Assembly: GCF_024362205.1 (NCBI RefSeq)
Contig: NZ_CP101462.1
Span: 1,888,501 to 1,952,500 of the forward strand
Reading direction: 5' to 3'
Source of the DNA: Exiguobacterium aurantiacum
GTDB lineage: Bacteria > Bacillota > Bacilli > Exiguobacteriales > Exiguobacteriaceae
Length of the DNA stretch: 64,000 nt
In this document: piece after piece, positions 60,466-61,887 of the stretch
Layout of the letters: each line of letters starts with the position of its first letter
Position numbering within the stretch: position 1 is the first letter of the stretch
The notes under the pieces: generated by a model
The model's database searches: none
The model's input: only the letters and a program-made list of their open reading frames with translations
Told to the model about the DNA's origin: nothing
Program-made: the position numbers and the translations under genes

Positions 60466-60497
60466 GAAGGCCCGGGCGCTGCGCCCGGGCCTTGTTT
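60466..60497 (+). terminator. Terminator of ylaF
   Basis: Perfect GC-rich arms aaggcccgggcgc and gcgcccgggcctt, followed by TGTTTATTATT. The suhB-like fusion gene ends toward it from the other side. Confidence 0.9.
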
Positions 60498-60570: not shown

Positions 60571-61824
60571 TTATAAATCGCGCGTCAGACAAATCCGGTC
60601 ACGCAAGGCGAGCCCGTCTTCCTCGATTGGCGGATATCCGTGGTCCGGGAAGTAGTCGCGCTCGACCGATTCAAAACGAAAGCCGGCTTGTTGATAAAAG
60701 CGCAACTGGACGATGCTCGAGTTGCCCGTACAGACGAGCATATGCTTCGCCCCGCTTTGCTCGGCCCGACGAATCGCGTCTTGGAGCAGGCGTTGCCCAA
60801 TCGTCTGGTTTTGCCGATCCGGTTTGACGGCGATATTGACGAGCTCGAGCAGTTCCTCACTACGCCGCACCAACATGTATGCACCGACAAGTTCCCCGCC
60901 GAGCGTCGCTTCATACGTCTCGCCCGCAACGTATTGTTCACGCACCATCGCCTCATTCGGGTTGGCGAGGACGAGCAAATCACGGACGCGGTCGTAGGAG
61001 GCGTTGACTTCAATTTGAAGATCTGGTCTCACTTCCGGGGTCACCCCTTTGGCGATGACGTAGTGTTTGACGACATCTTTGACGAACGTCTCGCTCCCGG
61101 CAAGGACCGACGTCTTCCCGTCATAGCGCACCGGTTCCCCATAAATCGAGACGACGCGGCCCCCGACCTCCTCGACGAGCAGTTTCCCGGCGGCGTAGTC
61201 CCATGGCATATTGCGCATCGTGATATAGCCGTCGACCCGTCCCGCTGCGAGCCAGGCGAGTTCGAGCGAAGCGGCCCCGTGCGCTCGCGTGCCGACCGAG
61301 TCGCGCACGATCGGCGCGAGCACTTCCGGTGCGATCTGCTGGTTCGGTGTCACCCATGTCGCATTCATACTAAGGAAGGCATCGCGGACATGATGTTCCT
61401 GAATCGGCGGGAGCTTCCGCCCGTTCAGCGTCGTGCCGACACCACGGCGCGCCACGAACAGCTCATCTGCCATCACGTCATAGACGAAGCCGTACTCGAC
61501 GGCTCCATCGATCATGACGGCCACCGAGATGGCGAACATTCGTTTTTGGTGGATGAAGTTCAACGTTCCATCGATCGGGTCGACGAACCAGACCGTTCCG
61601 GACAGGTCGTCCGGGCTTGTGGAGATGCCCTCTTCCCCGATGATGTGATGCTCGGGGTACGTCTCACGGATGCGGTCGACAATCAACTGTTCGACGGCCC
61701 GGTCGATTTCCGTGACCAAATCCCCTTTCCCCGTCTTTCGTTCGATGCGATAGCTCTCATCGATTTGCTGTCGAATATATTCCCCTGCTTGTTTAATCAA
61801 GTCAATCGCGAACCATTCCAACAT
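60571..61824 (-). CDS. Inositol monophosphatase-family phosphatase fused to a GNAT acetyltransferase
   Basis: The 417-residue protein has two enzyme domains. Residues 1-260 are an inositol-monophosphatase-type phosphatase with all metal sites: GEEG (63-66), DPIDGTLNF (82-90) and WDYAAG (208-213). Residues 268-417 are a GNAT N-acetyltransferase resembling YvbK (LELVNIAVKPD, CTGNSSIVQLRFYQQAGFR). In the acetyl-CoA loop the usual first glycine is a threonine (QNQTIGQ, 338-344). The ATG at 61824 has AGAGGTG upstream. The phosphatase matches yktC by position; stand-alone yktC products are about 265 residues. Substrates are unknown; such phosphatases can act on inositol phosphate, NADP or PAP. Confidence 0.88.
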   Translation of the reverse strand: MLEWFAIDLIKQAGEYIRQQIDESYRIERKTGKGDLVTEIDRAVEQLIVDRIRETYPEHHIIGEEGISTSPDDLSGTVWFVDPIDGTLNFIHQKRMFAISVAVMIDGAVEYGFVYDVMADELFVARRGVGTTLNGRKLPPIQEHHVRDAFLSMNATWVTPNQQIAPEVLAPIVRDSVGTRAHGAASLELAWLAAGRVDGYITMRNMPWDYAAGKLLVEEVGGRVVSIYGEPVRYDGKTSVLAGSETFVKDVVKHYVIAKGVTPEVRPDLQIEVNASYDRVRDLLVLANPNEAMVREQYVAGETYEATLGGELVGAYMLVRRSEELLELVNIAVKPDRQNQTIGQRLLQDAIRRAEQSGAKHMLVCTGNSSIVQLRFYQQAGFRFESVERDYFPDHGYPPIEEDGLALRDRICLTRDL

Positions 61825-61852
61825 GTTTATCACCTCTAATATGTATTGTACC

Positions 61853-61887
61853 AAACAAAAACCAGTATCCGCATGGAATACTGGTTG
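61853..61887 (-). terminator. Terminator of the small gene 61904-62092
   Basis: Arms aaccagtat and atactggtt around ccgcatgga, followed by TTTTGTTTG on the minus strand. Confidence 0.88.

Follow-up and report, generated by a model that had tools for sequence, protein, structure and literature searches.

Known phosphatases of the YktC/SuhB/IMPase-II family (B. subtilis YktC; S. aureus structures 3t0j, 5i3s, and 5dw8) stop near residue 256-265. B. subtilis YktC has measured inositol-monophosphatase and GMP/IMP 5'-nucleotidase activities, hydrolyzing inositol-1-phosphate well (Km 0.076 mM) and GMP and IMP weakly, and is required for diamide resistance; the authors of that study doubted that inositol phosphate is the physiological substrate and also argued against a role involving NADP, which they did not themselves assay (PMC5080769). 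In the TYB cluster, which comprises three enzymes for the amino-sugar-like compound 1-deoxynojirimycin, the phosphatase is Yktc1, a paralogue of YktC (PMC4338435).

The second family of concern here, the GNAT superfamily, has the P-loop consensus Gln/Arg-x-x-Gly-x-Gly/Ala, and active members with atypical P-loops, such as AAC(2')-Ic and PseH, exist (PMC4964394). For the YvbK and YkzC subfamilies of GNATs, the literature searched yielded no report on the activity, substrate, or cofactor binding of any protein. The bifunctional NAGS/NAGK enzymes combine an amino-acid kinase with a C-terminal GNAT domain of the same pathway; they share the C-terminal GNAT fusion with the protein described below but differ in that their pathway is known and their first domain is unrelated. 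Both families that meet in the present protein are already known; as far as these tools show, what is new is the IMPase-GNAT architecture and a convergent pair of adjacent genes, yktC and ykzC.

The gene in question lies in a 64,000-nucleotide stretch of Exiguobacterium aurantiacum contig NZ_CP101462.1 (the window). It starts with an ATG at position 61824 and ends with a TAA at 60571 on the minus strand, encoding a protein of 417 amino acids (Table 1). The initial annotation described it as a fusion of an IMPase-type phosphatase with a YvbK-like GNAT domain at residues 268-417, a reading that agrees with our results: Pfam detects both domains, and the limits proposed are accurate to within 1-2 residues. 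The surroundings, with a gene of the UPF0223 family upstream, as in Bacillus, and typA and ylaH downstream, match those in the sister genus and correspond to the YktC-type neighborhood (UPF0223 gene, small gene, yktC, then typA). Terminator-like hairpins precede and follow the fusion gene, and its relatives also show a hairpin after the stop codon, so that the gene is probably transcribed alone. A consensus scan did not call the TACAAT -10 element, and no -35 element was found. In the linker (61021-61050, minus strand), an SD-like sequence, AAAGGGGTGA, lies ahead of an in-frame GTG (Val265) that could start a free GNAT in the source species. As a general feature of the genus, such an internal restart was rejected because the GTG is not conserved, being absent in about half of the relatives.

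Table 1. Features of the fusion locus, in window coordinates
Feature	Position	Strand	Basis
Fusion gene: YktC-type phosphatase followed by YvbK-type GNAT	60571..61824	minus	417 codons plus stop; 19/19 genomes of the genus
Inositol-monophosphatase domain, residues 5-257	61054..61812	minus	Pfam PF00459; S. aureus IMPase-II by sequence and fold
Metal-ligand Glu64 (GEEG)	61633..61635	minus	motif position; invariant in genus
DPIDGT motif: metal ligands Asp82 and Asp85, plus Thr87	61564..61581	minus	motif position; invariant in genus
Metal-ligand Asp209 (WDYAAG)	61198..61200	minus	motif position; invariant in genus
Linker, residues 257-268, predicted flexible, fast-evolving	61021..61056	minus	pLDDT, dN/dS
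Complete GNAT domain, YvbK subfamily, residues 269-417	60574..61020	minus	Pfam, 1yvk match, YvbK profile, pLDDT
Atypical acyl-CoA P-loop QNQTIG, residues 338-343, Thr341 for Gly	60796..60813	minus	alignment
Good ribosome-binding site AGAGGTGA	61830..61837	minus	upstream of fusion-gene ATG; kept in nearly all 19 relatives
-10-like TACAAT preceded by TGG (extended -10, TGGTACAAT), probable promoter of the fusion gene	61845..61850	minus	kept in nearly all 19 relatives
Terminator-like hairpin of the gene upstream of the fusion gene	61860..61886	minus	
GC-rich terminator hairpin, fusion gene / convergent small gene (ylaF position)	60467..60493	plus	

The fusion frame is unbroken in all 19 species genomes of the source Exiguobacterium genus, with 79-97% identity over residues 1-417, and therefore is no sequencing artefact. 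The possibility that an error joined two frames, the objection raised in the initial annotation itself, is negligible, as is that of a chimera or misassembly: these genomes come from separate assemblies, and we found no point in favor of an artefact. In the sister genus (the E. sibiricum/undae/antarcticum/indicum group), all 19 genomes encode the phosphatase only, with a stop near residue 256 and 60-67% identity to the phosphatase half of the fusion; the E. sibiricum locus, for example, has the same neighbors (UPF0223 gene, small gene, phosphatase gene, typA, and ylaH), and the phosphatase stop there is followed by no more than a short spacer. A search for the same architecture in 399 Bacilli genomes from 145 genera yielded no further fusion among the matches listed, and neither did a stricter search of 398 Bacillota genomes, in which weak fusions could escape given the E-value cut-off of 1e-70 and the limit of 4 scored candidates per genome. 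Several long open frames around IMPase genes (in G088, G060, G232, G264, and G216) were rejected as fusions since they contain no in-frame GNAT. As far as these tools show, then, the architecture appears to be confined to one genus; the initial annotation knew of no description of such a protein, and the literature that we searched contained no published IMPase-GNAT fusion either.

The phosphatase half is readily recognizable. Residues 5-244 score 211 bits against Inositol_P (PF00459; curated cut-off 27), this half matches S. aureus IMPase-II among solved structures (E-value 4e-64), and the predicted model superimposes on that structure with a TM-score of 0.90-0.93, normalized to the target. 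Fold, metal ligands, and motifs are thus shared with the known family, to which the fusion adds a second enzyme domain. The motifs GEE, DPIDGT, and WDxAAG are all present, and their ligands Glu64, Asp82, Asp85, and Asp209 are invariant in the genus, in line with the intact metal sites noted initially; the role of Glu64 we take from homology to Glu70 of human IMPase. All 52 positions conserved in the unfused phosphatases are kept, so this half, judged from its sequence, retains every conserved residue of an Mg2+-dependent YktC phosphatase. It is also the sole Inositol_P protein found in the source genome and so presumably fills the YktC role. The control of a PAP or NADP phosphatase that was suggested initially is not the leading candidate, as the published activities, which are those of B. 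subtilis YktC only, are on inositol phosphate and GMP/IMP (PMC5080769).

The C-terminal half matches Acetyltransf_1 at residues 298-382 (46 bits; curated cut-off 20.7), and among solved structures it comes closest to B. subtilis YvbK (1yvk; E-value 4.8e-29), compared with 8.8e-7 for a RimI-like protein. The match to the YvbK subfamily (1yvk, 1y9k, and 6ao7) is full-length, at about 40% identity, with the VNIAV, TGNSS, and YQxxGFR motifs kept, and the order of strands and helices of the GNAT fold is complete in the AlphaFold2 model. Nevertheless, this is a divergent member: beyond its fusion to a phosphatase, only 35 of the 60 YvbK-conserved positions are kept, and many of the 25 changes are fixed. 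Those fixed in 18/18 aligned fusions include Gly341Thr, Asp288Asn, Cys303Thr, Gly365Cys, Tyr396Gly, Asn403Asp, and Arg412Cys; Glu327, Asn330, Gly343, and Tyr377 are among the positions retained, and Gln338, a common residue in YvbK, does not vary. The pattern suggests a domain that took on a different job and afterward came under constraint once more, rather than one in decay.

AlphaFold2 predicts two confident domains (mean pLDDT 84.9) and, between them, a linker in which pLDDT drops below 50 (residues 260-266), and the pTM of 0.62 implies that the mutual arrangement of the predicted domains is not fixed. Within the GNAT half, pLDDT is mostly 83-96 per 10-residue block, the exception being one block of 76 at the P-loop. 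The Nei-Gojobori method, applied to pairs below saturation, gave dN/dS ratios of about 0.03 in the phosphatase, 0.07 in the GNAT, and 0.29 in the linker region (residues 256-276); these values are rough, since synonymous sites come close to saturation. Both domains are under purifying selection.

One of the fixed changes lies in the acyl-CoA loop, where the initial annotation had pointed to Thr341 in place of the usual glycine. This residue turns out to be Thr in 19/19 fusions and Gly in 27/27 unfused YvbK-like sequences aligned, so that QNQTIG departs from the consensus at the first Gly; given that some active GNATs deviate at the P-loop, this does not exclude the domain from the superfamily to which fold and sequence assign it. 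The change raises the possibility of a pseudo-enzyme or an acyl-CoA sensor: the GNAT half may have lost transfer activity, perhaps along with the binding of CoA, and may now act in regulation or interaction. The replacement of an otherwise universal Gly in every fusion and the 25 changed positions would fit such a role, for which there is also a precedent in another hydrolase-GNAT fusion: human O-GlcNAcase carries a C-terminal pseudo-acetyltransferase domain in which an atypical P-loop accompanies the loss of acetyl-CoA binding (PMC3919268). The likeness in domain order is evident, but the GH84 hydrolase of O-GlcNAcase is unrelated, and nothing of the consensus is left in the P-loop of O-GlcNAcase (TDPSVA), whereas a single key residue is changed in the fusion. 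The retention of Gln338, Gly343, Glu327, Asn330, and Tyr377, the invariance of the loop, and the activity of AAC(2')-Ic and PseH despite their atypical P-loops (PMC4964394) all argue against a pseudo-enzyme; the dN/dS of the domain suggests a maintained function, although a sensor would show the same. Thr341 therefore cuts both ways, and sequence does not decide between an active GNAT and a sensor. Given the invariance of the remaining loop residues and of the candidate catalytic residues, we lean toward a domain that still binds acyl-CoA, and consider a regulatory sensor possible but unlikely, and less likely than a two-enzyme module.

We then come to the origin of the GNAT half. The fused domains score a median of 134 bits against the YvbK profile and 10 bits against the YkzC profile, to which true YkzC members score 230 bits, and derivation from YkzC was rejected on this basis. 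In the tree, the fused domains group together as a single clade, whose stem branch is very long (2.5-2.75 changes per site) and is followed by conservation. A stand-alone YvbK-like gene is present, elsewhere in the genome, in 16 of the 19 sister-genus genomes and in none of the fused genus, and shares 32-38% identity with the fused domain. The two are apart in the tree, but the rejection of their grouping is borderline (AU p 0.048) and long branches are present; descent from the sister-genus YvbK is thus unsupported. The gene order around the sister-genus stand-alone YvbK is variable and revealed no relic site. The fused domain may stem from the resident gene, which would have moved and then diverged rapidly, or may have been acquired. 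One sister-genus genome carries a second, distant YvbK-like gene (L127; G020:C1:704806-705204) with in-frame TGA and TAG codons in the aligned region, which probably is a decaying copy.

The absence of a stand-alone YvbK from the fused genus looks as if the gene had been replaced by the fused copy, and could point to a passenger fusion, that is, two independent enzymes that merely came to sit on one polypeptide when a stop codon was lost, the joined form being fixed by drift, and that keep their ancestral jobs. The stand-alone yktC and yvbK genes are not neighbors in the Bacilli genomes compared, which would suit such an accident and means that gene order provides no link for this exact pair. 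However, the ancestral YvbK signature was not kept, as the changed positions and the long stem indicate, the fused domain is (at borderline significance) apart from the sister-genus YvbK, and a second, separate GNAT arrived behind yktC in another lineage, so that we regard a passenger fusion as distinctly improbable. Long frames around YvbK in other Bacilli were rejected as phosphatase fusions; they join YvbK-like domains to other GNAT domains in either order (L130:1227-1667 and L131:1279-1722, family f3) or form a tandem GNAT with a YvbK-like domain (L129:1621-2058, family f4). The YvbK domain thus appears to be prone to fusion.

The second GNAT is found in Bacillaceae. In B. velezensis, as a plasmid search revealed, an annotated GNAT gene overlaps suhB/yktC by 14 nt; it is of the YkzC type, named after the B. 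subtilis gene at the same place. Published gene order supports the ykzC naming (PMC4448311). As in the fusion, a GNAT follows immediately behind the same phosphatase gene, but here there are two genes, and YkzC, although a GNAT by Pfam, belongs to another subfamily, with 24% identity to the fused domain over 63 residues only. YkzC is present in 59/80 genomes of the Bacillus family (family f15) and in 5 of its 6 genera; among loci from other Bacilli genomes, the gene lies directly behind the phosphatase in 8/49. In all 27 Bacillaceae loci with YkzC that were examined (for example, L141:3501-4737 and L186-L203), ykzC is on the same strand and starts between -14 and +11 nt from the yktC stop, in some cases at a TAATG overlap. 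Such overlapping or abutting junctions are the usual sign of translational coupling, and the two genes probably are coupled. The single-domain yktC that the initial annotation attributed to Bacillus is thus indeed a separate phosphatase gene, but one often adjoined by a GNAT gene. No functional description of the pair or of YkzC was found in the literature searched. Another recurrent partner of IMPase genes is a gene resembling NAD-dependent dehydrogenases of the 3-hydroxyisobutyrate type (296-299 aa, GxGTMGLPM motif; Bacilli families f19 and f52), located directly behind the phosphatase gene, 3-39 nt after its stop in L171, L178, and L182.

With a YvbK-type fusion in one lineage and a YkzC-type coupled gene in another, the phosphatase was independently joined by a GNAT on at least two occasions. 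As GNATs are common and two events make a small number, the recurrence hints at enzymes that work together but is no proof; how tight and how widespread the pair is in Bacillaceae carries more weight. The coupling would also suit a dedicated modifier, and the GNAT half might acetylate a lysine, either in the phosphatase half or in partner proteins, making the fusion a self-contained, acetylation-regulated phosphatase. The covalent tether would keep the GNAT near its target, and protein acetylation is known for some GNATs (PMC4964394). Nevertheless, we identified no candidate lysine, and with all family-conserved phosphatase positions kept, no specific co-adaptation is visible, which leaves regulatory acetylation an unlikely explanation.

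The explanation that we tentatively favor, at slightly under an even chance, is a fixed, vertically inherited fusion that acts as a module of a phosphatase and a re-specialized acyltransferase. A GNAT sequence of the YvbK type would have landed behind the resident yktC-type gene in an ancestor of one Exiguobacterium genus and come to be read in frame. The GNAT half would be an N-acyltransferase that depends on acyl-CoA and in which both the acceptor and the P-loop are altered, and the tether would let both enzymes work on one shared class of small molecules. Candidate substrates are amine-bearing sugar or polyol phosphates, which would be dephosphorylated and N-acetylated; we propose phosphorylated, amine-bearing small molecules because of the activities of YktC and the place of Yktc1 in the TYB cluster. 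In Bacillaceae, the coupled yktC-ykzC genes would achieve something comparable by means of another GNAT. Counting against this module are the lost P-loop Gly, the small number of pairing origins, the abundance of GNATs, and the separation of yktC from yvbK in the Bacilli compared. More broadly, a YktC-type phosphatase with a dedicated GNAT might constitute an undescribed two-enzyme module, reached convergently with two GNAT subfamilies (coupled ykzC and the fusion), that dephosphorylates and N-acylates one class of phosphorylated amines or is switched by acyl-CoA, a generalization that we consider plausible but rather less than likely.

The fusion and the independent coupled gene pair make the role of YktC in the cell testable as that of a phosphatase-acyltransferase module. 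In addition, the fusion represents a natural experiment on the tolerance of a GNAT to the change of a single P-loop residue.
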